Source: an uncultured Latescibacterota bacterium
GTDB taxonomy: Bacteria > Latescibacterota > UBA2968
Reading direction: 5' to 3'
Assembly (NCBI GenBank): GCA_958295785.1
Contig: OY282377.1
Span: 1 to 64,000, forward strand
Length of the DNA stretch: 64,000 bases
In this document: positions 29,910 through 61,566 of the stretch, one piece after another
Position numbering within the stretch: the first letter of the stretch is position 1
Layout: every line of letters begins with the position of its first letter
Translations under genes and position numbers: made by a program
The notes under the pieces: model-generated
What the model was told of the DNA's origin: nothing
What the model saw: the letters and a program-made list of their open reading frames with translations, nothing else
Database searches by the model: none

Positions 29910-30006
29910 CGGATACAAGGGACGGATCCTTGTTGACACTGGATGCCCAAAGTGGATGATTTTTGGGACGAGACAATACACGCAAAAACAAAAGGAGGGC
30001 CAGCGT

Positions 30007-32379: not shown

Positions 32380-32381
32380 TC

Positions 32382-32407
32382 GGGCGGGCACGGGGGTACC
32401 GCCCCTA
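32382..32407. repeat. Short GC-rich palindromic repeat inside the csm operon
   Basis: GGGCGGGCACGGGGGTACCG then CCCTAC in the 80-bp gap between cas10 and csm2; the clearest copy of the dispersed motif. It could form a hairpin in the operon mRNA. Confidence 0.6.
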
Positions 32408-32459
32408 CATTGGAAACGGAGAATTGAATTGTTTTTTCGCAGTCAGAAAGGAGGCATAA

Positions 32460-32855
32460 ATGCCCAGAACACATTTGAATGGTGTCACCGATCTCGGTGC
32501 CATAAAACCGGAAGACATCGATGGCATTGGCAAGGCTCAAGGCAAAGCATTTGCCGACAATGTGAAAACCAGCCAACTGCGTGCGTTTTACGGCGCGGTG
32601 AACCGCATTCGCGTTCAGTTTCAACAAGCCAATGATTTTTCACCTCGTATTGAGCGCAGTCTGATTTTGCTCAAGCCCAAATTGGCCTATGCGGCGGGGC
32701 GACATAATACACTGAAATCTTTTCAGTCCTTTATGGTGCAGGCCATTGATGGCGTTGTCAAAAGCAACGGTAAAGAGCAGGCACTGACCAACTTTTTCGA
32801 TTTGCTGGAAGCGGTCGTTGCCTATCATAAATTTTACGGCGGCAAAGACAAATAA
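32460..32855 (+). CDS. csm2: Csm2, small subunit of the type III-A complex
   Basis: 131 residues, nearly all helical. KAFADNVKTSQLRAFYGAVN is the typical Csm2 (Cas11) motif and the length is normal. AAAGGAGG precedes the start. It packs along the crRNA-target duplex next to Csm3 filaments. Located between cas10 and csm3 as expected. Confidence 0.9.
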   Translation: MPRTHLNGVTDLGAIKPEDIDGIGKAQGKAFADNVKTSQLRAFYGAVNRIRVQFQQANDFSPRIERSLILLKPKLAYAAGRHNTLKSFQSFMVQAIDGVVKSNGKEQALTNFFDLLEAVVAYHKFYGGKDK

Positions 32856-32875
32856 ACAAGGAGTTTTGAAACGCT

Positions 32876-33637: not shown

Positions 33638-33647
33638 GGAGGGTGGT

Positions 33648-36427: not shown

Positions 36428-36459
36428 ATGATGCGATGGATTTGCAGAAAGGAGAGGAT

Positions 36460-37734
36460 ATGAGCACGGCGATGCTGGTGACAGTGGGGGTGGGCGCCAC
36501 GGTTGCAGATGGAATTGCGTTTGCCATTCGGGACAAACGCCCGGATTTTGTGGTGTTTCTGACGACGGAACAAAGCGAAAGCCTAACGATTCCCACCCTG
36601 TTGGATAAACTCAAGTTGAATCCCGGAGATTATGAATGCCGCCGCGTGTCGGACGAGAATGATGTTGAAGGATGCACGTTGGACTGCATAGCTGCGATCC
36701 AAGGGTTGAAAAAACGAGGATTTGATGCCCAAGACCTCGTGGCGGATTTCACATCGGGCACCAAGGCGATGTCTGCGGCACTTGTGGCTGCTGGCGTTGA
36801 GGAGACCCTTGGCAGACTGTCTTATATCCACGGAAAACGCGGTAAAGGCGGGATCGTGATTTCGGGCACAGAACACGCCTCATCACTTGAACCAACCCGA
36901 TTGACCATCCGCCGCATGACGGAACAGGCCATCGCGCAATTCAATGCACCGCGTTTTGATACGTGCGTGGACATGCTCGATCAGATCGAGGGCCTGACCG
37001 GCCTGGAGAGTGTCAAGGAAACGATGGCTACCTTGCAAAAGCTTGCAAAGGGATATCGATCTTGGGATCAATTCGACTACCCATCGGCCATGGCGCATCT
37101 GAATAGCTTGAGGAGAGATGAGCGGGTGTCCAAGTGGGGATTGAAAAACAAGTTGAAGAAGCACAAGGCTTTTTTGCACCGCGTTATCCACTCCAAGTAC
37201 GGCGTCGAGCGGGCCGTGGATTTGTGGAACAGTGCGGAGAAACGCAAAGCCGAGGGGCGTTTCGACGATGCCATCGCGCGTCTGTATCGGTTGATGGAAT
37301 ATATCGCACAAGTGCAACTCTTCAACAATCATCGCGGCTTGGAAACCCATGATCTCGATGTGAAATTGCTGCCCGAATCCCTGCGCCCACAGTACGAAAA
37401 AAAAGTTGGACGGTCCGGCAAAATCGAACTGCCGCTGTATGAAAGCTATGCGTTGTTGAAGCATTTGGGCGATGACTTGGGGGGGGTGTTCACAAATGAG
37501 TATGACGGGAAGGGCGACCTCAAAAAAGTGCTGGGGCTGAGAAATCAGTCTATTCTCGCACATGGCTTTGGGCCGGTCTCTCAAGAAGGATGTGGAACAG
37601 CACGGGATTATGTCCGTCAGTTTATGGATCAGGCATTTCAGGACTGGGAGCAGAAAGCCGCAGAAGCGGTATTTCCGAGACTGCAATTCACATCAGTAAC
37701 TGAAAGTTTGGCATTGGGAGGTCAACCGGGTTGA
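36460..37734 (+). CDS. CARF-HEPN effector, TIGR02710-like (Csm6-related)
   Basis: 424 residues from the ATG at 36460, which follows AAAGGAGAGG; the longer frame from 36424 is less likely. The CARF domain has the nucleotide-binding strand AMLVTVGVGATVADG and the VADFTSGTKAMSAAL loop. The C-terminal part holds RNQSILAH at about 360-367, an R-X6-H HEPN ribonuclease motif. It should be an RNase switched on by cyclic oligoadenylate. Last gene of the csm operon. Confidence 0.85.
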   Translation: MSTAMLVTVGVGATVADGIAFAIRDKRPDFVVFLTTEQSESLTIPTLLDKLKLNPGDYECRRVSDENDVEGCTLDCIAAIQGLKKRGFDAQDLVADFTSGTKAMSAALVAAGVEETLGRLSYIHGKRGKGGIVISGTEHASSLEPTRLTIRRMTEQAIAQFNAPRFDTCVDMLDQIEGLTGLESVKETMATLQKLAKGYRSWDQFDYPSAMAHLNSLRRDERVSKWGLKNKLKKHKAFLHRVIHSKYGVERAVDLWNSAEKRKAEGRFDDAIARLYRLMEYIAQVQLFNNHRGLETHDLDVKLLPESLRPQYEKKVGRSGKIELPLYESYALLKHLGDDLGGVFTNEYDGKGDLKKVLGLRNQSILAHGFGPVSQEGCGTARDYVRQFMDQAFQDWEQKAAEAVFPRLQFTSVTESLALGGQPG

Positions 37735-38013
37735 TTGGGCAAGTGCCGACGCGATAGAAGTCTGTCTGCGACCCTAAAAAAAAAAGGTTGTCATAATGAC
37801 GCAATGGGGTTATATTGATTTAAGCTATCGAACATTAGGCGCGTTACCTGATCCAATTCTGGGTCGCAAATTTGTAACGGCCTGTCTCGAAAGCAATTAT
37901 CCGAACACCATTTTAGTCGTCAGCGCGATTTTGAGGGGCATCTGCCTGTCAAAGTGGCCTGAGTCGCACAAGGGCCTCATACGAACTGCGGCCCAATAAG
38001 TTAGAAAGGAGGC
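37735..38013 (+). promoter_or_regulatory. CRISPR leader region
   Basis: The 279 bp between the CARF gene and the first repeat, with an A10 run near 37776-37785. Array polarity (repeats ending GAAAC, cas operon upstream) places the leader here. A 67-codon ORF (37796-37999) crosses it without a good ribosome site or recognisable family; I regard it as doubtful. TTAGAAAGGAGG ends 2 bp before the first repeat. Confidence 0.6.
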
Positions 38014-41000
38014 ATTTGGAAGTACTACCCGCCTACTGGGGTATTGAAACTCAACTTCTCGCGCCACAGCGCGGAGATACAACGAGTAAATTTGGAAGTA
38101 CTACCCGCCTACTGGGGTATTGAAACCTCTCATATCAGCTAACAACCAACCAATCGAAATTAAGATTTGGAAGTACTACCCGCCTACTGGGGTATTGAAA
38201 CGTAACCGCAACGCCGTTGCCCGTGCATTACAGCAAGTATTTGGAAGTACTACCCGCCTACTGGGGTATTGAAACATCAATAACAGGGGTAATATGCGCC
38301 CGTTCATACTGTTTCATTTGGAAGTACTACCCGCCTACTGGGGTATTGAAACTTGTATGCCCAATGCTTCTCCAAGCATTTTCTGCGACATTTGGAAGTA
38401 CTACCCGCCTACTGGGGTATTGAAACTTTCTGATAGCGTTTGACCAGGAAGTTGTGCCTGTAAAATTTGGAAGTACTACCCGCCTACTGGGGTATTGAAA
38501 CTTGCTACGTGTGATGCTACGGCTTTGTAATTCATAATGTATTTGGAAGTACTACCCGCCTACTGGGGTATTGAAACCTTCACGCTCAAACACGGACTCG
38601 GAGACATCCACATACTATTTGGAAGTACTACCCGCCTACTGGGGTATTGAAACCTCGCAATCTTCATGTCGCGTTTCGCGCCGAAAGGCAACATTTGGAA
38701 GTACTACCCGCCTACTGGGGTATTGAAACGTAGTCACCACAAGAGACCTAACAACAGTCTTGCTTGTGTCGATTTGGAAGTACTACCCGCCTACTGGGGT
38801 ATTGAAACTCCAAACAAACGTCTGACCCGCAGTAATCTCACACCCTCCATTTGGAAGTACTACCCGCCTACTGGGGTATTGAAACCCCAAGATGTTCTTG
38901 TGATCATGCCCATAGCAGAGCCAAATATTTGGAAGTACTACCCGCCTACTGGGGTATTGAAACATACTCTTGATTGTTGTAGAAGTCGACACCATCAGCC
39001 CAAATTTGGAAGTACTACCCGCCTACTGGGGTATTGAAACATCCACTGCAACGCGCGCCCCATGACGTATTGAATCCCGGTGTTTTTATTTGGAAGTACT
39101 ACCCGCCTACTGGGGTATTGAAACCCGAATTGTCGCCTCATCCCCATCGAAATAGGGGGAATTGGTGAATTTGGAAGTACTACCCGCCTACTGGGGTATT
39201 GAAACTATAATTATGAAGTGCCTCATCTAGCGCCGGATCGGGCGAATTTGGAAGTACTACCCGCCTACTGGGGTATTGAAACGTGGTGGTGTGGGGTGGC
39301 TATTCGGGCACTTTCTCGAGAATTTGGAAGTACTACCCGCCTACTGGGGTATTGAAACGATCCAAAATTGACCTCCTCGCCTAAAACCATCTCCATATTT
39401 GGAAGTACTACCCGCCTACTGGGGTATTGAAACATACACCGACGGACGAAAAGCTTTGTAATGCTTTTATTTGGAAGTACTACCCGCCTACTGGGGTATT
39501 GAAACTTGCTTTATTTGCCACTTCAATTCTCGCTTCCTCTGTTCATTTGGAAGTACTACCCGCCTACTGGGGTATTGAAACTTGAAGTCGGGCAACCGAC
39601 ACGTTCACCTGTTGCCGTTTCATTTGGAAGTACTACCCGCCTACTGGGGTATTGAAACTTTCGGCTTTTTAGATAAGTTTATTTGGGTTGATCCCCCATT
39701 TGGAAGTACTACCCGCCTACTGGGGTATTGAAACTTAAGCTCATCATCCCCGACAACCCGCCACTCTTTTTCACCCATTTGGAAGTACTACCCGCCTACT
39801 GGGGTATTGAAACATACTCGCCACCATGGGCAATGGTCACAATGTACGCTTGCATCTATTTGGAAGTACTACCCGCCTACTGGGGTATTGAAACTGTCAG
39901 GCACCGCCCGGATGAAAAACACCAGTGGTGTTATTTGGAAGTACTACCCGCCTACTGGGGTATTGAAACTTATCCACCACCGCTTCCTCTGCCGCCGCCA
40001 AATCTTCAATTTGGAAGTACTACCCGCCTACTGGGGTATTGAAACGCCTCTTCTGCGGTTTTCCAGTCCTTTTTCTCGATAGATTTGGAAGTACTACCCG
40101 CCTACTGGGGTATTGAAACTGACATAAAATTCGGTTGATCAGTTCTGAATAACTGATATTTGGAAGTACTACCCGCCTACTGGGGTATTGAAACTTTTTT
40201 CGTGAAGATCCGTAGGCCATTCTTGGCGGCCTGATTTGGAAGTACTACCCGCCTACTGGGGTATTGAAACATCTTGCGCTGAGCGTCTTCGTATTGCCCG
40301 TCGAAAAAATTTGGAAGTACTACCCGCCTACTGGGGTATTGAAACGCAACTTCTCCTCATTGAAAACTTTGGCACGCTCACCAATTTGGAAGTACTACCC
40401 GCCTACTGGGGTATTGAAACCAAACGCATCAAGCCCCTCGCGCGCATGCTGGGTACGCAAATTTGGAAGTACTACCCGCCTACTGGGGTATTGAAACTTT
40501 TCCCGTCGGGATATTTGTTGATCAAATCTTGGAGACATTTGGAAGTACTACCCGCCTACTGGGGTATTGAAACTATTGATAAGGTTTGTAACCGTCTCAA
40601 TACCAAATTCAAATTTGGAAGTACTACCCGCCTACTGGGGTATTGAAACACATTGTGCTACTCCTATGGATGGTGTGAACTACGGTGATTTGGAAGTACT
40701 ACCCGCCTACTGGGGTATTGAAACTTAAGGAAGAACATCAGGACCAAAGATTTTTACAGCATACAATTTGGAAGTACTACCCGCCTACTGGGGTATTGAA
40801 ACAGGAGGCGGCGATGAGCAAGGCCGAGCGCGAAATTTGGAAGTACTACCCGCCTACTGGGGTATTGAAACTGTCTTGAAGCAACGGCATTGGCTTCTTC
40901 CTGTTTCAATTTGGAAGTACTACCCGCCTACTGGGGTATTGAAACGGATTTTCTCGTCCGGCTGCACGGGCAGAATTCGCTCCCAGATTTGGAAGTACTA

Positions 41001-42553
41001 CCCGCCTACTGGGGTATTGAAACTAAGTCTCCCTTTTTCAATGGGATGCTCACGTAATTGATATTTGGAAGTACTACCCGCCTACTGGGGTATTGAAACT
41101 CATGCGCGTAGTCTCGCGCCTCGACCTGCACAGATTTCAATTTGGAAGTACTACCCGCCTACTGGGGTATTGAAACGGGCGAGACGCTGAGTAAGGTCAA
41201 AGCGCAGACTGACAATTTGGAAGTACTACCCGCCTACTGGGGTATTGAAACATGAGAGAGCTTATAGGTTGCCGCGGAGCAGTCGATGTCAATTTGGAAG
41301 TACTACCCGCCTACTGGGGTATTGAAACTCATAACGCGCCGCAACACACGCAATCGCGGAATCAAAAATTTGGAAGTACTACCCGCCTACTGGGGTATTG
41401 AAACGTAGGTGTCCAATGCGGATTTCAACAGCAGGGTAGCCCTAATTTGGAAGTACTACCCGCCTACTGGGGTATTGAAACGTAGTCTCGTCGGTAAGCA
41501 TTCACGAAATGTCGTCTTTTGATTTGGAAGTACTACCCGCCTACTGGGGTATTGAAACAAATATTTCTTTCTCTTTCATGCTCAAAAACCGCTCCGATTT
41601 GGAAGTACTACCCGCCTACTGGGGTATTGAAACCAATGGGAGACTGGCGACAGCGAACGCAATCTTCGCGTTGATTTGGAAGTACTACCCGCCTACTGGG
41701 GTATTGAAACAAGTAACTGATCGCTCGGTCAATTGAATCCATAGCCATCTATTTGGAAGTACTACCCGCCTACTGGGGTATTGAAACGGTGTCAAGTGGG
41801 GGTTTCATTCGTTTTCGTTGCACGAATTTGGAAGTACTACCCGCCTACTGGGGTATTGAAACACCGCGTGTCTGGAGACCTTAATCATCATTTTTCATGT
41901 ATTTGGAAGTACTACCCGCCTACTGGGGTATTGAAACAACTCTGTGTAGTATTTCTTCACCGTATCAAAATCCGCGGCATTTGGAAGTACTACCCGCCTA
42001 CTGGGGTATTGAAACTTCCTTGGTGGTATCTCGTTGTATGCGATACCGGGAAAATTTGGAAGTACTACCCGCCTACTGGGGTATTGAAACAGCATCTGAT
42101 CGTCGGCATCTGCGATGGCATCCGCGGCGGCATTTGGAAGTACTACCCGCCTACTGGGGTATTGAAACTTCTGTCTCGTCAACAACTTTCAACAAGTGTT
42201 CCGTTTATTTGGAAGTACTACCCGCCTACTGGGGTATTGAAACAAGGTGGGGGTCAGGTCGATCAGGGTTTTGGCCTCGGATTTGGAAGTACTACCCGCC
42301 TACTGGGGTATTGAAACAGACCGTTACATCCGTCTCGAAAATCTCCTCGTAAAGCAATTTGGAAGTACTACCCGCCTACTGGGGTATTGAAACCAAAAAC
42401 ATAACGGCCATCGTTCGGCAGTGCCGAACGCCACTGTCATTTGGAAGTACTACCCGCCTACTGGGGTATTGAAACTTCACCAGCCATACATCTGCGAAAG
42501 GCACCAGGCACAGTACATTTGGAAGTACTACCCGCCTACTGGGGTATTGAAAC
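38014..42553 (+). CRISPR. CRISPR array, 60 identical repeats and 59 spacers
   Basis: The repeat is 37 nt, starting ATTTGGAAGTAC and ending GGGGTATTGAAAC; I counted 60 copies with no sequence change seen. Spacers are mostly 35-44 nt and none is visibly duplicated. A short hairpin (TACCC/GGGTA) sits in the 3' half, leaving the 8-nt handle ATTGAAAC typical of type III crRNAs, so transcription is on the + strand. A 61st identical repeat lies at 47143-47179, cut off by a 4.5-kb insertion. Confidence 0.99.
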
Positions 42554-46597: not shown

Positions 46598-47016
46598 ACC
46601 CATTTGATTTTTCTTTGTCCGTCTCCTGCCTCCCATCAGGGAGGAATGAGGAATGGGGAACAGATGTTGCGTAGGGATCATGCGGTGCTTGTCTCAAGCG
46701 TTGGGTTCTGCCTCCTCGTTTGTTACTTCCGATGCGTTGGCTACGCCTGTGCCTACGGCGTGCGGCGACCTCCTTTTTTTTAACAACAAAAAAAGGAAGC
46801 AAAAAATGCCGCTCTCATGCGCTGAGGGGGGTCTGCACAGCGCAAAGCGCTTTGCGGGTCGCACACCATGCGCTGGCCTGCGAGGTGGGGTGCAAGAGGG
46901 AGGTGGGTTGCGAGACGGCCTTGCGCGCTGTGCGCGATGGTTTTATCGGAGGGTCTTTTGGGATGGCCTTTTTGCCATGGCTTTTCTGAATGCCTAGGTA
47001 ACGTCAAGGGAATCAT
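46598..47016. repeat. Dispersed noncoding repeat, copy C (uninterrupted)
   Basis: Matches copy B from ATTTGATTTTT through GGGAATCATT, including TATCGGAGGGTCTTTTGGGA, the undisturbed equivalent of the site where the R-M transposon sits in copy B. It is the best guide to the full repeat, about 420 bp. Hairpin-forming T8/A7 runs lie near 46775-46800. Its right edge abuts the IS5-derived MITE. Confidence 0.75.
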
Positions 47017-47019
47017 TAA

Positions 47020-47136
47020 GAAGCCCTCACATAAAGAAAGCAAGCGTCTGAAACAGAGGAGGGAACACCCGAGGGAGAGGAACGCCTCAAAGTTGGCCTC
47101 TCACAAATCCAGGGCAACGCTTTTTGTTAGGGACTC
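47020..47136 (-). mobile_element. MITE-like deletion derivative of the IS5-family element
   Basis: 117 bp made of the two ends of the IS at 42592-43518, in reverse orientation: about 70 bp of its right end (GAAGCCCTCACATAAAGAAA) joined to about 45 bp of its left end (CCTCTCACAAATCC, TTTTTGTTAGGGA). The transposase is deleted. It is flanked by TAA on both sides (47017-47019 and 47137-47139). Confidence 0.88.
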
Positions 47137-47142
47137 TAAATC

Positions 47143-47179
47143 ATTTGGAAGTACTACCCGCCTACTGGGGTATTGAAAC
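47143..47179 (+). CRISPR. Detached 61st CRISPR repeat
   Basis: A single copy identical to the array repeat, in the same orientation. Joining 42554-42591 to ATC (47140-47142) recreates a 41-nt spacer between repeat 60 and this one, so it is the original distal repeat. Confidence 0.95.
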
Positions 47180-47237
47180 GGATAACCAGCGGTGCATGAT
47201 GCCCTTTTACACGCCAGTCTTTTTTTGGAGAGTTGCC

Positions 47238-48386
47238 ATGCCTAAACCTAAACCCCACACGCTCATCTGTACAGTCGGAACAAGTCTGTTATATCCCAAC
47301 CTGTCTGGTCTAACGCAGGAATCGCAGGCTGACCCGACCCTTGACGCTTTGGCCCAAGCGTATTCCAGAGAGAATTGGAAAGAAGTGGCGGTCCAATTGC
47401 GTAAAATCCAGCCAACCGAACGGCTTTGCGGTGCAGAGATTAACTCTGTAACGGATCTCCTCACGCATGGAGAGGTTGAGAAATCCAACCTTCATCTGCT
47501 CTATTCTGACACCGATGATGGGCAGGCAATTGCCCAAATTTTACAGTTCTATTTCGAAGCCGATAGTTGGAAGCAGGTGCAGATTCATTGCGTGGACGGG
47601 TTGCGCGATGACGACCCGCGACTTTTCCGCACGCATGGTTTGCGGAACTTGGCGAAAATTTTTGGTGAACAGGTGCGTCATGCTGGCGGCGCGGATTCTT
47701 GCGCGATTAACGCAACGGGTGGCTATAAAGCTCAGATCGCCATTGCCGTGCTGATGGGACAAGCCCTCGACATTCCAGTGTTTTACAAGCACGAACGCTT
47801 CAACGCCATTATTCCCTTTCCTCCTATGCCAGTGGCACTCGATTTTTCACTTTGGGAGCGGGCAAGCGGCATGTTTATGGTGCTCAGCCAGCGCAATGCC
47901 TGTGAGCCGTGGGAACGGTTCGAAGGGGACTGGGATGAACGCTTTGAACCGCTGGTCAATCGGGTGGAGATCGACGGTGAGGATTATTTGGAACTCTCGG
48001 CGACCGGCCAGATTTTTCACGAGACGTTCCGATCCCGTTTTCAAGCGATTAAGGCTACCCGTTTGCCGCGTTCAGCAACAAAGGATGAGAAGGAGGCGCC
48101 TAGGCTGGGGCAACATAACTACGGGCAAGCTAGAGAAAGAATTTTGAGGTTTTTGGAAAATCTAACGGAAGATGTGCCGTACATCCGCTATTGCCACACC
48201 ACGTATTGGAACCCAGATTTGTCTGAATCGACGCGGTTTCGGTCGTCGCGTGGAAACGTGCAAGGCATATACTCGAACGGGACTTGGTGCGTGAAGTTTC
48301 GTGTCGTTACAACTGTGAATGATCCAGATTCAGAAAGCACGGCGGTCATTGTGGCTGATCTCAACGACAGGTTGGCGGAAGCATGA
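47238..48386 (+). CDS. CARF-domain protein (TIGR02619/APE2256-like) with unassigned C-terminal domain
   Basis: 382 residues from the ATG at 47238 (GGAGAG upstream). The CARF-like domain has HTLICTVGTSLLYPNLSG at the start and CAINATGGYKAQIAIAVLMG near 155-175, then YKHERFNAIIPFPPMPVAL; these fit the TIGR02619 family. The last 130 residues (RERILRFLENLTEDVPYIRY, VQGIYSNGTWCVKFRVVTT) are a separate alpha/beta domain I cannot assign; a RelE-type RNase is one possibility. Probably a cyclic-oligoadenylate sensor or effector. Located between the distal repeat and cas2. Confidence 0.78.
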   Translation: MPKPKPHTLICTVGTSLLYPNLSGLTQESQADPTLDALAQAYSRENWKEVAVQLRKIQPTERLCGAEINSVTDLLTHGEVEKSNLHLLYSDTDDGQAIAQILQFYFEADSWKQVQIHCVDGLRDDDPRLFRTHGLRNLAKIFGEQVRHAGGADSCAINATGGYKAQIAIAVLMGQALDIPVFYKHERFNAIIPFPPMPVALDFSLWERASGMFMVLSQRNACEPWERFEGDWDERFEPLVNRVEIDGEDYLELSATGQIFHETFRSRFQAIKATRLPRSATKDEKEAPRLGQHNYGQARERILRFLENLTEDVPYIRYCHTTYWNPDLSESTRFRSSRGNVQGIYSNGTWCVKFRVVTTVNDPDSESTAVIVADLNDRLAEA

Positions 48387-50699: not shown

Positions 50700-52238
50700 A
50701 TGGGACAAAAGTTAGTCTCGTTTGATACAGACCGTATAAAAGAATATGTTTTTGCAACAGATAAGCTCAAAGAGATTCGAGGGGCGAGTGCCATTCTTGA
50801 TGAATTGAACCGGTGGGATATGGTCGAAAAGAGTCGAAAATTCAATGCAGAGAAAATTTATGCAAACGGCGGCTCCGGGATGTTCAGAGTGCATGCAACC
50901 TCCGCAAAGGCTCTGATGCAGGCTTTAGAAAGGGAATACCGTTTGAAGACACGGACCGGTTCTATTACAAGTGCCATCGCAGAACTCCCTGACGGCTTTA
51001 CAAATCAAGATGCTGTCCAACCCTATCTTCAAAGGCTTGCTTACCGGCTTCGTCTGAAAAAGGATGAAAATATTCTAAATCAGCCGCTTTTGACCCACTC
51101 TTATTTGAGAACTTGCGATTCTTGTGGTGAACAGTATGCAAGTCATAGCGTTACAAATCCCGAACCTGAATTGCTTTGTGGGAGTTGCAAAAATAAACGA
51201 GACAAGAATGACGAAGTTAAAGCAGATATTCAAGCCATTATCAGTGGAAAAGCCACAGAAGCTATGAAACACAAACTCTGGCATCGCCTATTACACGATC
51301 TGAAGGGAGAAGGCTATAAAATAAAAGAAAAAAATCGTCCTGAAGATTTTGGTGATTTGGGCGAAATGTCGAACCCACAGAACTACATGGGACTTATCTA
51401 TGCAGATGGGGACAGTATGGGCAAGGCACTGGAGGAGTTGAATAACTTAGACGAGGTCAAACAGTTTTCTAGGGTGGTTGACGATGCTATTTACCAAGCA
51501 GTACGAGAGGCAATCTGTGCATATCTGCCTCCCGGCGATAAGTATTTACCTTTCGACATTCTGATGCTTGGAGGCGATGATTTGGCAATGGTTACAACGG
51601 CACACAAAGCCATTGAAGTTTCAATGAAGATCGCCGAAAAATTCAGTGAACTCACCCAAAAAGGCTTAAGCAAATCTTTGACACTATCCATTGGTGCGGC
51701 TATCACGCATACGACATTTCCATTTTCGAGCCTACTGACTTTAGCTGAAGGAGCGTTGAAATTCGCGAAAAAGGAAGCCGCGAAACGCAAACGGCATGGA
51801 CGAGAGACATCAAAGGAAGGTCTAATCAATTTCATTGTGGTAAGTAATTCTAACAGCCTTGATTTTGACACCTACCACAGCGAGACGCTTAGCGACGAGG
51901 ACCAAAACCTCTATCGAACGATTCGTCCCTACAGTCTGGCAGATATGCGATATATCGTGGAGACAATTCGCTACCTAAAAAGGAAAAATTTCCCACGCGG
52001 CAAACTGAAGGGTCTTCAGGATGTGGTTTTCCAAAGTATAAATCAGTCACTCTTAGAAGGGTTGACATTCCTCAAAAGCACAAAGGATGAAGAACAGCCA
52101 AGACTATTCATAAAATTTCTCGAACGTTTTGCAACCAATCAACCGCCTTATCCTTTCCCTTGGTTCCAAGATGGTGGCGATTACTATACCCCGTTTTTGG
52201 ACCTCATCGAACTTTACGATTTCATCGAAGCAAAGTGA
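50700..52238 (+). CDS. cas10: Type III-D-like Cas10 without HD domain
   Basis: 512 residues from the ATG at 50700 (AAAGGGAG upstream). It starts directly with a palm-like domain (FDTDRIKEYVFATDKLKEIR). A zinc element (CDSCGEQ near 139-145, then CGSC) and the cyclase palm follow, with YADGDSMGKALEEL near 235 and GGDD at 291-294. No HD nuclease motif exists, so this complex should signal through cyclic oligoadenylates and not cut DNA. First gene of an operon through 60125. Its codons are more AT-rich than those of the III-A locus, suggesting separate acquisition. Confidence 0.9.
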   Translation: MGQKLVSFDTDRIKEYVFATDKLKEIRGASAILDELNRWDMVEKSRKFNAEKIYANGGSGMFRVHATSAKALMQALEREYRLKTRTGSITSAIAELPDGFTNQDAVQPYLQRLAYRLRLKKDENILNQPLLTHSYLRTCDSCGEQYASHSVTNPEPELLCGSCKNKRDKNDEVKADIQAIISGKATEAMKHKLWHRLLHDLKGEGYKIKEKNRPEDFGDLGEMSNPQNYMGLIYADGDSMGKALEELNNLDEVKQFSRVVDDAIYQAVREAICAYLPPGDKYLPFDILMLGGDDLAMVTTAHKAIEVSMKIAEKFSELTQKGLSKSLTLSIGAAITHTTFPFSSLLTLAEGALKFAKKEAAKRKRHGRETSKEGLINFIVVSNSNSLDFDTYHSETLSDEDQNLYRTIRPYSLADMRYIVETIRYLKRKNFPRGKLKGLQDVVFQSINQSLLEGLTFLKSTKDEEQPRLFIKFLERFATNQPPYPFPWFQDGGDYYTPFLDLIELYDFIEAK

Positions 52239-52249
52239 GGTAAATTTTC

Positions 52250-53005
52250 ATGCAACGAGACTTTATCAGTATTGACTACCGCATTGAATTTGAAACCCCT
52301 TTCCACTTTGGGACTGGGTTGCGACGCAATTTGTTAGATCGCAGTGTTTGTCGAGATGCAAATAGTTATCTTTATATTCCCGGCTCAACGCTGAAAGGGG
52401 TATTGAGAGAACAGTGTGAGCAGATTGCCCGCTTATTCGGCCTTCGCGCTACCAGTCCACACAATGAACGAAAAGCAATTGCCAGTTTCCGCGATAATAT
52501 AGATATCGTTGACCGAATCTTCGGCTCTCGTTACAAGCCGGGTGAACTTTATTTTGACAATGCGACGATGGTTGAGGCAGATCGGAATTTTTTTGATAGT
52601 TCCCAAATTTCAAAGCGGTACATCCACCTTCAAACCGAGACCCGCACACAAACCAGTATCTCTCGACTTCTTGGCACGGTACGTGAACAAGCCCTGTTCC
52701 AGAGCGAATTTGGCATCAAGACACTCTGCTTTGAAGGACGGATTTACGGCTACCTTGAAGGATTTCGCCTGCTTGATAGAGGGACTTGGAGCTATTCGCT
52801 ACTGTTGCTTGTCGCGGGAATTTGTGTCAATGACCGAATCGGAGCAAACAAATCAACGGGGATGGGCAAGTATGACTGCCAAATTCAAAAGTTGAAATTC
52901 AATGAGAAAACAATTGAAGTTGCAGATTTGTTGGAAAGTCTGAGCGAGTTGGAGTTGTATCAAGACATACAGCAGGAATATTATGAACAGGAGGGAATAG
53001 AATGA
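52250..53005 (+). CDS. Cas7-type RAMP subunit (III-D), first of four
   Basis: 251 residues. FHFGTGLRRNLLDRSVCRD places Asp30 where Csm3 has its catalytic Asp. YIPGSTLKGVLREQCEQ is the RAMP loop and NKSTGMGKYDCQIQ the late glycine-rich segment. A backbone subunit likely able to cut target RNA. Its stop overlaps the csx10 start (ATGA). Confidence 0.85.
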   Translation: MQRDFISIDYRIEFETPFHFGTGLRRNLLDRSVCRDANSYLYIPGSTLKGVLREQCEQIARLFGLRATSPHNERKAIASFRDNIDIVDRIFGSRYKPGELYFDNATMVEADRNFFDSSQISKRYIHLQTETRTQTSISRLLGTVREQALFQSEFGIKTLCFEGRIYGYLEGFRLLDRGTWSYSLLLLVAGICVNDRIGANKSTGMGKYDCQIQKLKFNEKTIEVADLLESLSELELYQDIQQEYYEQEGIE

Positions 53006-54276
53006 AAGCAAGACTTATCGTTTCATCGGAATCGCCGCTAAACTTTCGCGTATCTCGTTCAACGGCAAGTTTTGAGACGCTTAAATACATTCCTGGCACC
53101 GCACTGTTAGGGGCGTTTGTAGTCGCGCATCGCAAAACTCGTGACAATGAAACCGAATTTAACCGGTTCTTCCTTTCCGGGGAGATAGGTTTTGGTAATC
53201 TTTATCCCGCAAATTTTCAGACGGATGAATTTGCAAACACCGAACTGAGAGACAATGATCAGCCAGTCAAACCAATACCGAACACCGCCCGTTCATGCAA
53301 ACGATTCAATGGCTTTCGCTTTAAGGCAAATGAAAGCGATAAGGAGCGACACGGTGTCTTAGATAGTCTCATCGATTGGGGGTTGTTTGCGTTGAGTCAA
53401 CAGAAAAATATTGAAATCCTCAAGGCACATAGGAATTGCACTTATGCCGATGATCAAAGCAAATGTAACGAATTGCTCGATGTATTCTCGAGTTTCTATC
53501 GTCGTGGTGAGGAGATTAACCAGATTGGCAAATCTGAGGCAAAGACTCGCCTGTTGACCCGAACGGGCATCAGCAGGGAAACGGGCACTGTTCAAGAAGG
53601 TATCCTCTACAACCGAGAAGTCCTCAATGAAGGACAGTCGTTTTGGGGAACAGTGTCCTTTTCCAATGAATCGCTGTATGATATTTTCTGCGACTTTGCA
53701 GAGGATGTCGCAGAAAAGGGAATACTCAGGGTTGGAAATAACTTGACGCGAGGACTGGGAAAACTTGGCGTTCCACAAATCCAAAAATTTGATATTGAGG
53801 ATAGCGAATCGTTCAAAAAACGGGCTGATGCGTTCAATGAGAAGCTCCACACTAAAGCAAAAGCGCATTGTGTTGATTTGCCACATCAATTTTATTTTCC
53901 GATCACACTCCAATCGGATGCGATTCTTCTCGATCCATTGCTACGTTATCAAACGGCTCTAGATGGTGATTATCTGTATCGTGTGTGGGATATAGCGGAT
54001 GCCAAATTGGTCTATCAGAATGCAGGCCAACGGCGCGTGATCGGCTGGAATGCCCTTTTCGGATTGCCCAAGGTAGCAGAATGGGCGATTTCAATGGGTT
54101 CTGTTTTCCTGTTTGGATGTGACGGGGCAATTAATGATCATTTTTATTTGAAACTCTACGATATTGAACAGAAAGGGATTGGCAAACGTCGAACAGAAGG
54201 TTTCGGTAAAGTAACGATTGCCGATGCCTTTCATTGGGAGGTCAACGAATATGAATCAACAAATGAAAATCCTTAA
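53002..54276 (+). CDS. csx10: Csx10-like Cas5 subunit
   Basis: 424 residues. LKYIPGTALLGAFVVAHRK is the Csx10/Cas5-type entry motif, and LTRTGISRETGTVQEGILYN, then GNNLTRGLGKLGV and a C-terminal GKRRTEGFGKV match the later RAMP motifs. In III-D complexes Csx10 takes the Cas5 role at the crRNA 5' handle. The ATG overlaps the previous stop; the small-subunit gene starts inside its 3' end. Confidence 0.83.
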   Translation: MKARLIVSSESPLNFRVSRSTASFETLKYIPGTALLGAFVVAHRKTRDNETEFNRFFLSGEIGFGNLYPANFQTDEFANTELRDNDQPVKPIPNTARSCKRFNGFRFKANESDKERHGVLDSLIDWGLFALSQQKNIEILKAHRNCTYADDQSKCNELLDVFSSFYRRGEEINQIGKSEAKTRLLTRTGISRETGTVQEGILYNREVLNEGQSFWGTVSFSNESLYDIFCDFAEDVAEKGILRVGNNLTRGLGKLGVPQIQKFDIEDSESFKKRADAFNEKLHTKAKAHCVDLPHQFYFPITLQSDAILLDPLLRYQTALDGDYLYRVWDIADAKLVYQNAGQRRVIGWNALFGLPKVAEWAISMGSVFLFGCDGAINDHFYLKLYDIEQKGIGKRRTEGFGKVTIADAFHWEVNEYESTNENP

Positions 54277-54685: not shown

Positions 54686-55079
54686 CCAAGCGCAAAAGAT
54701 CCGTCTGTTGAGTGATGGAAAACTTTATGATAAGGCGGTTGATTTTGTCCAAACGCATCTCGGCGTAAAAGTCTCAAAGACCCAACTGAGCGGTCTTCTA
54801 AACGCTGTCAGATCAGGAGATTGGAGTGAAATTTTTCGCTATATCGACAATCGGATCAATCGAAAAACAACTTCCGATGAATTGAAAGAATTCTATCAAT
54901 CCCTGAAAAATTATCTCAACCAAAAACTGTACAATCAAATTGAGGAACTCCTCACAATCAATTTGAATCACCTAAATCGTAACGAAAGGACTCAAGCTAA
55001 AAAGCAATATGCTCACTTTTTGGCAAAAGAATTTATTCAACATTTAGTCGCCGAATACAACTACCAAAGGAGTGTATAA
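54669..55079 (+). CDS. Putative small subunit (Cas11-like), second of two
   Basis: 136 residues from the ATG at 54669. Helical, ending QYAHFLAKEFIQHLVAEYNY, which parallels IREFVRQLVVHYEY of the upstream protein. It overlaps that gene by 17 bp, and its stop shares a base with the next ATG (TAATG). Two tandem small subunits could alternate in one filament or distinguish two complex forms. Assignment by size, fold and position. Confidence 0.6.
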   Translation: MTVTIDQAQKIRLLSDGKLYDKAVDFVQTHLGVKVSKTQLSGLLNAVRSGDWSEIFRYIDNRINRKTTSDELKEFYQSLKNYLNQKLYNQIEELLTINLNHLNRNERTQAKKQYAHFLAKEFIQHLVAEYNYQRSV

Positions 55080-55888
55080 TGCGTCGAAAATACATGTTCA
55101 CTGGAAAAGTGGAACTGAAATCTGCGATGCACATTGGGGGCAAAAAAATAAATCTGCGCGGTACCGACAGGCCTGTTGTTCTCACGCCTGAAGGATCTCC
55201 CTTTATTCCCGGTTCCAGTTTCAAAGGCGTGTTCCGGAGTACCGTCGAAAAATTAGTTGGCACGATTCCCAATCAAACCACTTGTTCGCTAGTTGAAGGC
55301 ATTTGTCCGACGGCTACTCAGGAAAAATTCAATAACCGCCGCAGAAATGGTAACTGGAGTGAAGGTCATCTCGCACAAATTCTCGATGCCGAACTGTGTG
55401 CTACCTGTAAACTCTTCGGCTCACCGTTCTCGGCTTCCAAAATCTTCTTTAGCGACTTGTATGTTAACGAATGGTCAGAGACCACACAGGTGCGCGATGG
55501 CGTAGCGATTGATCGGGATAGTGAGCGAGCAGTCGACAAGCTAAAGTATGATTATGAGGTCGTCCCTATCGGTTCGACATTCAAAATGGAAATCGTCTTG
55601 GAAAATCCGACCGATACCGATCTGAGTTTGGCTTGCATTGGCTTGAACGAATTTGTAAGCGGCATGGGCGGAATAGGCGGAATGCGCTCGCGAGGGCTTG
55701 GAAATTGTCAGGTCGTTGATCTCATGGGGTATGAACTGGATATGACTGATCTTGATCAGTTAAAAAATTACCTTATCGGCAAAGAGCTTAAATGCAAGAT
55801 GTCAGCCATCAATGACGTGGATGGATTTCTAAAAGAGCGTATTGAAGAACTCTTTAAGGAGAAAGAAAATGCTCAAGCGACTTCTTAA
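55079..55888 (+). CDS. Cas7-type RAMP subunit (III-D), second of four
   Basis: 269 residues. GTDRPVVLTPEG carries Asp30, aligned with the catalytic Asp of Csm3. FIPGSSFKGVFRSTVEKLV is the RAMP loop; CATCKLFGS is a zinc-cysteine motif; GGMRSRGLGNCQV is the late glycine-rich loop. Closest in layout to Csm3/Csx7 proteins. The next gene begins 20 bp before its stop. Confidence 0.87.
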   Translation: MRRKYMFTGKVELKSAMHIGGKKINLRGTDRPVVLTPEGSPFIPGSSFKGVFRSTVEKLVGTIPNQTTCSLVEGICPTATQEKFNNRRRNGNWSEGHLAQILDAELCATCKLFGSPFSASKIFFSDLYVNEWSETTQVRDGVAIDRDSERAVDKLKYDYEVVPIGSTFKMEIVLENPTDTDLSLACIGLNEFVSGMGGIGGMRSRGLGNCQVVDLMGYELDMTDLDQLKNYLIGKELKCKMSAINDVDGFLKERIEELFKEKENAQATS

Positions 55889-56909
55889 TGAATGCCGTTT
55901 CAATCTTGTGATTCACACCGAAGGCCCCGTGCTTGTCAAATCGGGGTATGCGACTGTTTCCGGCCCCGACATGACGCCTGTGAGAACTTATCGCAACGGC
56001 AAAACGGAGATCTATTTGCCGGGGAGTTCCTTAAAGGGCGTCTTCCGAAGTCACATTGAAAAGGTGATACGAACGCTTAACGACGGGGTCGTGTGCAATC
56101 CATTTGTCAAGACAAAGGATAAGTGGCGAGGTAATCAGATTGTCTGCCCCGATTACGCTGAAGTTGCGTGTAGCGACAAATTTGAAGTGCGGAAAAAATC
56201 TGAATTGCAGAATCACGAAAATCACTGGCGTCGGGACCCTGAAGATTTGTCAAATGAACAGATCTATCGCGATTCCTGCCCCGCGTGTCGCCTGTTCGGT
56301 TCGACTTCGTTCATTGGGCGTGTGGCTATCTCAGATGCCTACCTCACCCAAAACAGTCAGGAGGTGACCGAGCAACGAGACGGTGTCGGCATTGATCGGT
56401 TCACGGGCGGTGCAGCAGATAAAGCAAAATTCGAGCTGGAAGTCGTCTCCTCCGGTGTTGCGTTTGAGACAAACATTTACATGCGTAATTTTGAGGTGTG
56501 GCAACTTGGAATGCTGTTGCTCATTGTGCAAGATTTGGAGGATGGTTTGATTCGCATTGGCTCTGGAAGATCACGCGGGCTAGGGAATGTCAAGGGCAAA
56601 ATTTCCGGGGTGTTGGTCAATTACATCGGCGCGGTGAATGGAAAACCTGCCGAAACGGTATGGGGACTGGGCAAGCTCTTGGGCAACAATTCTTATGGCA
56701 CGGATGCCAACGACCAAGTGCCGATTCAACCGCCCCCTACTGAAAAGACGCACGGTATCCGCAAAGTCACCACTTTCAGCGGCGATAGTCTCAACAGTCT
56801 CAAACAAGCCGCCATTGAATCATTTGTGGAGAAAATCCAGTCGTGGAGCATGCCGGAAACGATGCAGTTTGAGCATCTACAATTCCAACAGACCGGAGGA
56901 GATAGATGA
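55869..56909 (+). CDS. Cas7-type RAMP subunit (III-D), third of four
   Basis: 346 residues from the ATG at 55869, behind AAGGAGAAAG. SGPDMTPV supplies Asp34 at the catalytic position; IYLPGSSLKGVFRSHIEKVI is the RAMP loop; CPACRLFGS the cysteine motif; GSGRSRGLGNVKGK the late loop. The C-terminal 80 residues after WGLGKLLG are an extra tail rich in Pro, Thr and Ser. Overlaps the next start by four bases. Confidence 0.86.
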   Translation: MLKRLLNECRFNLVIHTEGPVLVKSGYATVSGPDMTPVRTYRNGKTEIYLPGSSLKGVFRSHIEKVIRTLNDGVVCNPFVKTKDKWRGNQIVCPDYAEVACSDKFEVRKKSELQNHENHWRRDPEDLSNEQIYRDSCPACRLFGSTSFIGRVAISDAYLTQNSQEVTEQRDGVGIDRFTGGAADKAKFELEVVSSGVAFETNIYMRNFEVWQLGMLLLIVQDLEDGLIRIGSGRSRGLGNVKGKISGVLVNYIGAVNGKPAETVWGLGKLLGNNSYGTDANDQVPIQPPPTEKTHGIRKVTTFSGDSLNSLKQAAIESFVEKIQSWSMPETMQFEHLQFQQTGGDR

Positions 56910-57457
56910 CCGAACAAATCTGTTGGGGAAAGGCTGAAAGTTTGCTTCCAATTGTTAAAGCGTTGAATTGTCCGCCTGAATCGTTGATGATGCTTGAACG
57001 AGTGCCGAGTTCTTTCTTGTCTGATGATGAACGGGAAAAGGGAATCTGTCTGCGGGTATATGACGCAAATGAAAATTTTGAGGCTTGGGAACAGGGACGC
57101 ATTTTTCACAACGATTTTGAGTTGCGATGGGAGAAACAGGATGGCGCATTTAGCACCGTTTATATCGGTGCTGAGAAAACGTTGTCAATGCCTAATGTCA
57201 AGCCGCTTTCCGGCTTTGAAATTCAGGATGATAGCTACTATCTCTGGGGCGAAAAGATGACAGCAGATACCCTTACGTTGATTGCTCAACCAGAGACAGC
57301 GAACTTATTCCTCGAACTGCAAATACCGCGGTTGTTGAGCTATCCTGTCTCGAATCGAAATGCAAGGTTCCGTGTGAAATTATCTGTGCAACACTACTTA
57401 AATTTAGAGACCGGCGAGTTGGAATTTTACCGTTTTCGACATCTGGAGGAAGTATAA
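56906..57457 (+). CDS. csx19: Csx19-like (TIGR03984-type) protein
   Basis: 183 residues, beta-rich. GRIFHNDFELRWEKQDGAFS and YYLWGEKM fit the pattern of TIGR03984/Csx19 proteins found only in III-D type loci. Its role in the complex is poorly known. The start overlaps the preceding stop (ATGA) and its stop overlaps the next start (TAATG), so it is tightly co-translated. Recognised from memory of motifs. Confidence 0.65.
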   Translation: MTEQICWGKAESLLPIVKALNCPPESLMMLERVPSSFLSDDEREKGICLRVYDANENFEAWEQGRIFHNDFELRWEKQDGAFSTVYIGAEKTLSMPNVKPLSGFEIQDDSYYLWGEKMTADTLTLIAQPETANLFLELQIPRLLSYPVSNRNARFRVKLSVQHYLNLETGELEFYRFRHLEEV

Positions 57458-58500
57458 TGAATCCCTACGACTTTGTGCCGATTGACTGGCACATCCCCCC
57501 TGAACGTCATTGCCCTTCGCCACATGATAGATTTGATGGCGTATCCGGGAAGATCGAAGGAACGATCACGGCAGAGACACCTCTTTTCATTTTTCGTTCA
57601 CCTAAAAAGAACAGTGGAGCAGAACCGTTTATTTCAAACGCTCTGAATCAGCATATCATCCCCGGAAGTTCGCTCAAAGGGCTTTTTCGCAATTTGGTGG
57701 AGACGATTGGGAACGGCTGTTTTCTTGTGTTTGATGAGGATTATGAGTACGATAAGGAGAGAAAAAAATATACAGTCAAATATGGCAATAAACTGCTGTC
57801 TAAATTTAAAAAATGTAGTACCGCTGATTTGTGTATCGCTTGCCGAATGTTCGGAACGATTCAAGGATCGATACTCGGTAAAATTTCATTCAACGATGCC
57901 GAAGAAGTCAATATTTGCGATCACAGGACAGTTTATACCATCGCGCTTATGGAACCTAAACCACGTCATCAAGCGTTTTACCTTGAGCCAAATAGGCAAC
58001 ATATTGCAGGGCGCAAGTTCTATTTTCATCAACCGAGTGGCATACAGGCTGAAAACCAGAAAACTAAATATAATCAATACATCAAGCCAATTGATAAGGG
58101 CAGTCTGTTCTCCTTCTCTGTGCAGTTCACAAACCTTGAAGATGCCGAATTGCAGACGCTCCTTTACGCGCTTGTTCTCGAACCGGAGATGCGACATAAG
58201 ATCGGTTATGGCAAACCTGCGGGACTCGGTAGCGTCCGCTTTGAAATTACGAAACTCAAAATGATTGACTACGCTTGCCGTTACAGGGCCAATCAAGGGA
58301 TAACCGAATATGTAGGAAACGAGTTAGCCAGCTATTTAGCAACGGAGCTTCAACCGTTCAAGGATAACACAACCTCACTAACACTTAACGCACTCCGTCG
58401 CATCTGGCGATGGGATTCGGATGACACAACCACTTATCGTTATCCGGTTCAAAGCTGGTTTAGTGCCAATCCCGCGGCACCGATTAGCAAATCGCCATAA
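57457..58500 (+). CDS. TIGR03986-like Cas7 RAMP subunit (III-D), fourth of four
   Basis: 347 residues. MNPYDFVPIDW and HDRFDGVSGKIEGTITAETP match the TIGR03986 RAMP start; HIIPGSSLKGLFRNLVETIG is the RAMP loop; CIACRMFGT the cysteine motif; GYGKPAGLGSVRFE the late loop. In the segment where the three sister Cas7 proteins have Asp, this one reads KKNSGAEPFISNALNQ without Asp, so it is probably not a nuclease and may cap the filament. Confidence 0.82.
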   Translation: MNPYDFVPIDWHIPPERHCPSPHDRFDGVSGKIEGTITAETPLFIFRSPKKNSGAEPFISNALNQHIIPGSSLKGLFRNLVETIGNGCFLVFDEDYEYDKERKKYTVKYGNKLLSKFKKCSTADLCIACRMFGTIQGSILGKISFNDAEEVNICDHRTVYTIALMEPKPRHQAFYLEPNRQHIAGRKFYFHQPSGIQAENQKTKYNQYIKPIDKGSLFSFSVQFTNLEDAELQTLLYALVLEPEMRHKIGYGKPAGLGSVRFEITKLKMIDYACRYRANQGITEYVGNELASYLATELQPFKDNTTSLTLNALRRIWRWDSDDTTTYRYPVQSWFSANPAAPISKSP

Positions 58501-58523
58501 ATTCCAAAAAGGAAGTTTTCGCT

Positions 58524-60125
58524 ATGCCCCAAAATGTTCTGATTGCGACGCTTGGTGAATCGCCTATCATCGTCACCTCAATGGTAAAGGCACTGAGAGA
58601 GAAGAAATGGATGACGATTGATCAATTGCATGTCGTCCATCCACAAAGCGAGGAACAACTAATTGACCTCGGCTATGAAATGATCTGTGAACATCTTGCA
58701 GAAGAATGCGTTGTCGCACAATGTGTGCTACCCTTTCCCGACACAAACAGCCGCGAAACATCAATGACGTTTCTCCAAACTTTGTCCGGTTTAATCCAAA
58801 GCCACGAAGAGGCGAAAGATAACGTTTATCTTTCCCTTGCTGGTGGAAGAAAAAACATGTCCGCACTGATGGCAGTGACATGCCAATTCTTTGAGTGTGT
58901 GCGTGGATTGTACCATATCTTGGATAAACACGAGGATGATCCCAAGAAACGAAATTTCCATTCGATAGAGGCATTGTGTGATTTTGGTGAGGGTGAACGG
59001 TCTGAAAAATTGAGTCCTCCTGCTGATGATCTAATCCTTGTTGAAATTCCCTATCCCCGACTGTCGAACCCTATTGCTCTTCGGCAATATTTCAGTGAAG
59101 CGCAATCTAATCCGGATGCACAGACCCCGATTGAGATTGAGGGCGAACTTAATGCGTTTTATCGTGAAATTTTTCAACAAAAAAAAATAGAAGATCTTCT
59201 TGATGTTTATCTTTCCAAAGAAGCCTATGATCAGTTTAAAAAAATCCATGGTGCTACTCGACAGAACCTTATGAACTGTTTTCGATCTATGCGGTATCCG
59301 CAATTGCTAAAGAGTCGTGGTAAATCATTATCCAAAGCAAAAACAGATTGTACTCCGTTCAAGATGGGAAGAACGGCTGAACGACCATTCTACTATCGTA
59401 CCAATGGCGAAGTTGTCGTCTGCGAAATTGCATTGAAGAATACCACTTATCCAGACATTATTGCTGGAAGAAAGGAAATTTGGTCAAAAGATCACGATAA
59501 ATTTGTACCTGTGAATAAACTCAAAGAAGATAGCATCCTGATTGTCCCGCTTGGAAAATCACCCATGGTTGTCACCCAAACCTTCGCGTTGTTGTCCAAA
59601 CGGGAAGGGGTCAAGATCAAAAAGATCATCGTTATTCAACCCAGAAATGCCGAAATTAGCAATGGTGTAGAGTTGGTGCAAGAGGCGTTTAGGAGAAAAT
59701 TTAGGAAACATAAAAGTCAAAAAGACCTTATCCGATCTCATGAGATTCCGAATATTCAAGATGTCGCGTCCGAAAATAATTGTATGATCTATCTCAAAAA
59801 ACTGGTCTCTGTCATTGAGGCAGAGCAGAAAAATAACCCTGATAAAAGCATCCACCTGTCGTTGTCTGGTGGACGAAAAGGGATGGCTGCATTGACCCTT
59901 TTTGCGACTCAACAGGCAAATATTGATGCAGTGTATCATACCTTAATCACGGATATTGAACTTGAAAAGAAAATTGAAGAGGAGACAACGCTTGATAAAC
60001 TACAATCACTTACCCGATCAAAGAGAATTGAACGCCTATTTTTAGATGCCTATGATGAATCAAAATTTGAGCTGTTTCGTGTGCCTGTTATCCCATTGCG
60101 ATTATTGTACCCAATTGTTGAATGA
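58524..60125 (+). CDS. Double-CARF protein of the III-D locus
   Basis: 533 residues. CARF 1 (about 1-190) has VLIATLGESPIIVTSMVKAL and YLSLAGGRKNMSALM. CARF 2 (about 334-490) repeats the pattern: ILIVPLGKSPMVVTQTFALL and HLSLSGGRKGMAALTLFATQ. Both resemble the NE0113-like CARF type. The 140-residue middle (ELNAFYREIFQQKKIEDLLD onward) and the last 40 residues match nothing I know; no HEPN RxxxxH or PD-(D/E)XK set is evident. Likely a cyclic-oligoadenylate receptor or ring nuclease formed from two fused CARF units. Last gene of the operon, before a terminator. Confidence 0.8.
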   Translation: MPQNVLIATLGESPIIVTSMVKALREKKWMTIDQLHVVHPQSEEQLIDLGYEMICEHLAEECVVAQCVLPFPDTNSRETSMTFLQTLSGLIQSHEEAKDNVYLSLAGGRKNMSALMAVTCQFFECVRGLYHILDKHEDDPKKRNFHSIEALCDFGEGERSEKLSPPADDLILVEIPYPRLSNPIALRQYFSEAQSNPDAQTPIEIEGELNAFYREIFQQKKIEDLLDVYLSKEAYDQFKKIHGATRQNLMNCFRSMRYPQLLKSRGKSLSKAKTDCTPFKMGRTAERPFYYRTNGEVVVCEIALKNTTYPDIIAGRKEIWSKDHDKFVPVNKLKEDSILIVPLGKSPMVVTQTFALLSKREGVKIKKIIVIQPRNAEISNGVELVQEAFRRKFRKHKSQKDLIRSHEIPNIQDVASENNCMIYLKKLVSVIEAEQKNNPDKSIHLSLSGGRKGMAALTLFATQQANIDAVYHTLITDIELEKKIEEETTLDKLQSLTRSKRIERLFLDAYDESKFELFRVPVIPLRLLYPIVE

Positions 60126-60183: not shown

Positions 60184-60213
60184 AAAAGCCAGACAATGCG
60201 TCTGGCTTTTTTA
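60184..60213 (+). terminator. Rho-independent terminator of the III-D operon
   Basis: AAAAGCCAGAC and GTCTGGCTTTT form an 11-bp stem around AATGC, followed by TTTATTTTG. It lies 60 bp after the double-CARF stop and could also serve the opposite-strand dehydrogenase gene. Confidence 0.88.
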
Positions 60214-61207: not shown

Positions 61208-61224
61208 TACTGAAAATCAATTTA

Positions 61225-61553
61225 GAAGCCCTAACACAAAGAAATCAAGCATCTGAAACAGATGAGAGAACAGCCCATGGACAGGAACGCCTCATGGATG
61301 TCCGCTCTGCGCTCGTCGCGCACCCGCAGGCTGCGGAACTGCCGGAGCCAGGCCAGCGTCCGCTCAACGACCCACCGGTACGCGCCCAATCCGCTACCAT
61401 GCCCTGCGCCCCGGCGGGCTATCACCGGCGAGATGTGGCGCAAACGCAGGGCCTTCCGGTGCGCCCTCGAGTCATAGGCACGGTCCGCATACAGCCGTTG
61501 GGGTCTGCGGCGCGGACGACCGCATTTGCCCCTGACCGCGTGCACGGCGCTCT
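61225..61553 (-). pseudogene. Truncated IS5-family element with transposase C-terminus
   Basis: Starts with the IS right end (GAAGCCCTAACACAAAGAAA) and, on the minus strand, encodes LYADRAYDSRAHRKALRL and YRWVVERTLAWLRQFRSL, about 85-90% like the copy at 43126-43512. Homology stops near 61553, so the 5' two thirds and the left end are missing. Directly followed by the methyltransferase stop codon at 61567. Confidence 0.88.
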
Positions 61554-61566
61554 GGAGCCTTGCCAT

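Follow-up and report, generated by a model that had tools for sequence, protein, structure and literature searches.

A single-chain CARF-RelE-CARF protein at the end of a type III-D CRISPR operon, probably a cyclic oligoadenylate-activated effector

Cami1 is described in PMC11229360 as a dimeric CARF-RelE protein that is activated by cA4 and cuts mRNA in the ribosomal A-site, and PMC12409355 ascribes intrinsic ring-nuclease activity to it; its structures are PDB 8phb and 8phj (Mogila et al. 2023, as cited in PMC11229360 and PMC12409355). Each chain has one CARF of the APE2256 type N-terminal to RelE, in the order CARF-(wHTH)-RelE, and the homodimer contains two CARF and two RelE domains. Can1 and Csm6-2 are precedents for a dimer fused into one chain (PMC11229360, PMC9704534). 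Can1 (PDB 6sce) carries two fused CARFs with another domain between them, as well as nuclease-like and PD-(D/E)XK domains, and cuts DNA, while Csm6-2 (PDB 9w3u), a single-chain III-D effector, is built as CARF-HEPN-CARF-HEPN with two nuclease domains. The Crn1/Csx14 ring nucleases (Sso2081, Sis0455) include Csx14, which has been placed within the Crn1 family (PMC12409355), and Crn1 is a small stand-alone CARF dimer; the importance of Ser11 is reported to differ between Sso2081 and Sis0455 (PMC10018336).

The gene described here lies in a stretch of 64,000 nucleotides (positions 1 to 64,000 of contig OY282377.1) from an uncultured Latescibacterota bacterium, which is called the window. It comes last in a complete type III-D CRISPR operon (Table 1), and its reading frame starts 23 nt after the preceding cas gene, the TIGR03986 RAMP gene. 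The original prediction of an open reading frame inside a III-D locus was borne out, as the frame has no internal stop and a plausible ribosome-binding site, and the csx10 and csx19 markers and cas10 are found upstream. Pfam gave no match to an HD domain in the III-D Cas10, which keeps GGDD, and interference beyond the target RNA should therefore rely on signalling by cyclic oligoadenylate (cOA).

Table 1. Positions of the operon genes, of the domains and residues of the CARF-RelE-CARF protein, and of two orthologues that lack RelE (window coordinates unless a contig is named).
Feature	Position	Strand	Basis or remark
cas10, type III-D, palm domain with GGDD	50700..52238	+	presumed activator source
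cas7-like RAMP gene	52250..53005	+	profile
csx10, III-D marker	53002..54276	+	TIGR02674
Two small overlapping genes, probably for small-subunit-like proteins of 155 and 141 aa	54218..55079	+	syntenic in relatives; no profile match
Two cas7-like RAMP genes, the second Csx7	55079..56909	+	TIGR02581 for the second
csx19, III-D marker	56906..57457	+	TIGR03984
TIGR03986 RAMP gene, immediately preceding the effector gene	57457..58500	+	profile
Likely ribosome-binding site AGGAAG	58510..58515	+	sequence
CARF-RelE-CARF gene, 533 aa	58524..60125	+	ORF stop-free, intact; homologues in twelve other genomes
CARF1, residues 1-178, NE0113/Csx14/Crn1 type	58524..59057	+	PF09623, TIGR03642, AF2 pLDDT mostly >80
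CARF1 motifs: TLGESP near residues 9-14; GGRK, residues 107-110	58842-58853 (GGRK)	+	
RelE-family ribonuclease domain, residues 205-334 including the linkers on both sides, core ~224-314	59136..59525	+	PADLOC, PDB profile matches, AF2 model
Lys280, equivalent of RelE K54	59361..59363	+	Lys in 9/12 members with the domain
Arg287, equivalent of RelE R61	59382..59384	+	Arg in 11/12 members with the domain
Tyr309, conserved	59448..59450	+	aligned with Cami1 Tyr; with RelE Y87 in one alignment
CARF2, residues 336-525, NE0113/Csx14/Crn1 type	59529..60098	+	PF09623, TIGR03642, PDB sequence matches to Sis0455/Sso2081 ring nucleases
CARF2 motifs: PLGKSP near residues 342-347; GGRK, residues 449-452	59868-59879 (GGRK)	+	
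Terminator-like hairpin closing the operon, downstream of the effector	60184..60210	+	sequence
RelE-less orthologue	L060:886-2148	-	first GGRK motif reads GGRKHTS
RelE-less orthologue	L061:1498-2736	+	first GGRK motif reads GGRKHTS

Other features were recorded in the window. An adjoining type III-A locus (26596-42500) contains a PrimPol/RT-like gene, cas1, an HD-bearing cas10, csm3-5 and Csx1 (CARF-HEPN), and a CRISPR array of ~61 repeats runs from near 38012, after the III-A genes. Copies of related repeats lie on either side of the III-D region, at 42585, 47013-47102 and 61218-61307; the last overlaps a minus-strand ORF (61231-61566) whose product, judged by eye, looks like the C-terminal end of an IS5-type transposase, and insertion-sequence remnants around the III-D cassette are possible. 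A second CARF protein, of the Cas_APE2256 type (47124-48386), matched the PADLOC profile CARF7--CARF_DUF2103 over nearly its full length (E 4.9e-120), and may be another cOA effector whose C-terminal domain is uncharacterised. Five plus-strand ORFs of similar size (523-535 aa) stand in a row at 2334-10853, possibly a tandem paralogous family.

The two NE0113-like CARFs that had been proposed in one chain are both present, as are the motifs TLGESPIIVTS and PLGKSPMVVTQ and the A/S-GGRK-x-M pattern. Both halves exceeded the curated cut-off of Pfam Cas_NE0113 (PF09623), with E 1.7e-15 for the N-terminal and 9.4e-19 for the C-terminal half, and the Csx14 profile TIGR03642 scored 116.1 bits over two stretches, against a cut-off of 90.35; the Crn1 profile NF040581 gave 63.2 bits, below its curated cut-off of 125. 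Both the Csx14 and the Crn1 profile matched the CARFs in all ten family members tried. The two halves can be aligned (26% identity, E 1e-14), and judging from this alignment they are paralogous. In a tree of CARF domains the CARF1s of the family form one group and the CARF2s another (99/100 each), a grouping compatible with the two-CARF layout having arisen once. In both halves the lysine of GGRK never varies where the alignment covers it, and the position of Sso2081 Ser11 is occupied by His or Tyr instead of Ser in CARF1 of some members. Intrinsic ring-nuclease activity of the CARF pair is plausible, given the relationship of these CARFs to Csx14 and Crn1 and the invariant GGRK lysine.

The original prediction had seen no known nuclease in the protein and had taken a middle part of ~140 residues to be new. 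Its boundary was about right, since there is an extra domain at ~205-334, but the domain is not new: it belongs to the RelE (mRNA interferase) family and is homologous to the Cami1 nuclease. Pfam is blank in this region, its RelE/ParE models matching neither the protein nor the middle domain alone, which explains why it had seemed novel. The PADLOC profile CARF7--CARF_RelE matched residues 211-326 (E 1.2e-9 with the whole protein, 2.4e-10 with the domain alone), the match covering the C-terminal part of the profile (228-339 of 344). When a profile of ten middle domains was compared with the PDB (177,635 sequences, matches listed to E 10), three of the four matches were YoeB, YoeB and ribosome-bound RelE, individually weak (E 0.2-1.1) and collectively specific. 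Structure prediction and search, which had been proposed for residues 190-330, led to the Cami1/RelE fold: the AlphaFold (AF2) model of the middle domain had a pLDDT of 84.7, and the 50 Foldseek matches listed for it were all Cami1 or toxins of the RelE/YoeB/YafQ/HigB/ParE type, with Cami1 first among the matches listed (E 2.6e-4). An HHalign comparison with three E. coli RelE-type toxins gave a weak match (probability 11%, E 0.003), so the RelE call rests on the PADLOC, PDB profile and fold matches, and these together with the residue alignments place the middle domain in the RelE family. Pfam matches of the middle domain to DUF3500, DUF2004 and Z1 were discarded as chance level (E about 0.1).

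The residue alignments used E. coli RelE from MG1655 as the reference, with the customary numbering of the RelE catalytic residues. Lys280 and Arg287 (Table 1) also match residues of Cami1, while the equivalence of Tyr309 with RelE Y87 varies with gap placement. RelE K52 and R81 are not conserved in the window domain and, as aligned, are absent from Cami1 too. Arg287 is lost in one family member, L022. A ParE-like or other non-ribosomal role of the RelE-fold domain is improbable; the protein would then be a cOA-controlled gyrase inhibitor or a free RNase and not an A-site mRNA interferase. ParE toxins have the same fold and are among the structural matches, and the missing K52 and R81 would agree with such a function, but the best structural match is Cami1, the only strong sequence match is the CARF_RelE profile, and Lys280 and Arg287 match the RelE and Cami1 residues, whereas the catalytic residues essential to BECR-fold RNases are reported to be missing from ParE toxins (PMC11980606).

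Cami1 is the closest characterised protein, and the window protein looks like a one-chain redesign of it. The two have in common a CARF sensor, a homologous RelE-fold domain with the shared Lys and Arg, and a place among type III effectors, but the window protein is one chain with a lone RelE between two NE0113-type CARFs, and Pfam gave no match to a winged-helix domain in it. A protein closer to the Cami1 layout was also found in the scan described below (P0002 in L032): it consists of a Cas_APE2256 CARF and RelE and matches Cami1 8phb (E 3.5e-14); when it is aligned with the window protein, its C-terminal part corresponds to the middle domain.

The whole-protein model, built from an alignment of depth 10, matched Can1 in Foldseek and gave its best E-value with Csm6-2; Sso2081 and Sis0455 were also among its matches. 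As had been predicted, the double CARF is comparable to that of Can1, while neither of the Can1 nuclease-type domains was found; Pfam searches of the window protein and eight relatives matched neither PD-(D/E)XK nor HEPN (Csm6/Csx1/Csm6-2), two of the three site types whose detection would have spoken against the original prediction. Weak PADLOC CARF_HEPN matches fell on the CARF parts only. The protein resembles Csm6-2 in having two CARFs in a single III-D chain and differs in its one RelE. Because the whole-model superpositions on Can1, Csm6-2 and Cad1 had an rmsd > 20 A, they were not used for the domain arrangement. Profile and structure matches put the CARF halves on the same branch as the Crn1/Csx14 ring nucleases, with the GGRK lysine in common, but here the CARF is fused twice and joined to RelE in a chain of 533 residues.

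Twelve relatives (33-69% identity) were found in Poribacteria, Desulfobacterota, Chloroflexota and one Desulfotomaculum MAG, the closest being Ca. Poribacteria. Scanning GTDB species genomes gave eleven of them, of which three are from Ca. Poribacteria, three from Desulfobacterota (L016, L018 and L019), four from Chloroflexota (L017 and L020-L022, three of them Ktedonobacteria) and one from the Desulfotomaculum MAG (L023), this copy being broken or truncated, with an ORF of 208 aa. The scan patterns were picked from a steering alignment with artificial rows, in which only the GGRK motifs were left conserved; it was used solely for the patterns, each scan match being confirmed by tblastn with the real protein. 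An alignment with Sso2081/Sis0455 had given poor patterns. The twelfth relative, L058, came from 400 genomes of the phylum of L022, which yielded this one new full-length gene, located after TIGR03986, and two RelE-less ones. No new match was found in 395 genomes of the phylum of L016 or 348 of that of L023, none of 297 genomes of the phylum of L032 had one, and neither a single-protein scan of viral contigs nor tblastn against plasmids gave a match. The family is rare, and its counts are lower bounds, since the scan is pattern-limited and the genome sets are samples. In the Desulfarculaceae copy (L016, near 8100), a frame change near residue 38 splits the gene, by decay or assembly error.

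A search of III-D loci for this architecture had been proposed. The gene directly follows TIGR03986 of the III-D operon in 10 of 11 compared relatives, the eleventh (L021) being cut by the contig end. As far as the contigs extend, the gene order cas10-cas7-csx10-two small genes-cas7-cas7-csx19-TIGR03986 recurs, with an insertion in L019. These proteins make up a small family that seems to be undescribed, so far seen only in type III-D loci of several bacterial phyla. No description of a CARF-RelE-CARF protein was found in the literature searched, which did not include Makarova 2020 or Mogila 2023, so that an earlier mention is possible; Makarova 2014 mentions a 'fusion of two CARF domains', RelE not being named there (PMC4012209). 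The idea of a new effector class survives only as a new architecture, the effector type itself being known.

Several genes adjoin the effector in the relatives: cas6 (L013:9631-10608), a CARF-like protein that by eye is Card1-like (L014:9625-10842), a small HFX_2341/CARF-like protein (L015:9737-10348), and a fusion of an NE0113-CARF with a LuxR-type helix-turn-helix (L020:3370-4236, minus strand).

NE0113-type proteins were earlier predicted as regulators (PMC4012209), and together with the CARF-LuxR-type neighbour this could hint at a cOA-dependent regulator that controls the operon, with a non-cutting middle domain that binds RNA or a partner. Such a role appears very improbable, because Pfam found no DNA-binding domain in the family, the nuclease-type residues are conserved, and the position and synteny are effector-like.

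Between close relatives, the window protein and L013, purifying selection acts on all three domains (dN 0.16-0.24, dS 0.8-1.8), with a dN of about 0.16 against a dS of about 0.8 in RelE. When these two are compared with the lineage of L014, the CARFs keep 65-75% identity and RelE only 46-47%, and synonymous change in RelE is saturated (pS 0.74-0.75, versus 0.47-0.63 in the CARFs). The same amino acid identity of 46-47% was observed for the RelE segment against L014 and L015, far more diverged than the flanking CARFs. The drop in identity and the saturated synonymous sites are the pattern expected of a replacement, which suggests that the RelE segment was exchanged for a divergent allele between Poribacteria orthologues.

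The two RelE-less orthologues (L060 and L061, from Chloroflexota genomes G713 and G529) are CARF-CARF proteins of 420 or 412 aa in the same III-D operon position. In the tree their CARFs fall within the CARF1 and CARF2 groups, on long branches whose placement differs between the halves, and this nesting favours a secondary loss of RelE. With L022 lacking Arg287 and two orthologues lacking the domain, RelE is not needed in every locus.

These members, the invariant GGRK lysine, and the scores of both CARFs on profiles of a ring-nuclease family that takes in Csx14 (PMC12409355) might also point to a protein acting mainly as a ring nuclease or cOA sponge, its CARF pair destroying or buffering the activator and its RelE-like domain being structural or a decaying remnant. 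That is unlikely, as the key Arg is kept in 11/12 members with the domain, which is under purifying selection, and the Ser11 equivalent is His or Tyr in CARF1 of some members. Moreover, the window's III-D operon has no other effector, and a lone ring nuclease would have nothing to switch off there, unless it served the III-A Csx1 or the CARF protein at 47124.

We consider it likely that the CARF-RelE-CARF protein is a type III-D ancillary effector, a cOA-activated ribosome-dependent mRNA interferase, perhaps self-limiting via its Crn1-like CARFs. The domain make-up, conservation, purifying selection and III-D gene context were obtained by computation, and we infer intramolecular CARF pairing, activation by cOA (most likely cA4), ribosome dependence and self-inactivation. 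Upon target RNA recognition, the III-D Cas10 would make cOA, which would be bound in one intramolecular pocket formed by the two fused CARFs; binding would reposition the single RelE, allowing its entry into the ribosomal A-site, mRNA cleavage and growth arrest as with Cami1, and slow breakdown of the activator by the Crn1/Csx14-like CARFs may turn the toxin off. A dimer of chains may instead take the place of the intramolecular CARF pair. By analogy, the protein would most simply be read as keeping the Cami1 chemistry while its CARF dimer is contained in one chain, a step that Can1 and Csm6-2 took with other nucleases.

The finding would assign an effector to a conserved III-D subset, represented in the window by a system whose Cas10 has no recognisable HD domain, and would make RelE the third nuclease class turned from dimer to single chain, after Can1 and Csm6-2. 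Family libraries label the window protein Csx14, Csm6 or Csx1, and ring-nuclease surveys with a length limit of 250 aa (PMC12409355) would miss a CARF-RelE-CARF protein. Tentatively, it can be pictured as a self-timed one-chain mRNA interferase with two CARFs to one RelE, whose fused Crn1-like CARFs would both sense and destroy cOA and whose effector would be an exchangeable cassette, RelE being replaced in Poribacteria and deleted elsewhere to leave the CARF-CARF frame as a ring nuclease. The natural set of proteins with a presumably active, a degenerate, a deleted or a replaced RelE may serve to learn in what way RelE is controlled by ligand binding at the CARFs, and whether a CARF pair can do with one RelE.
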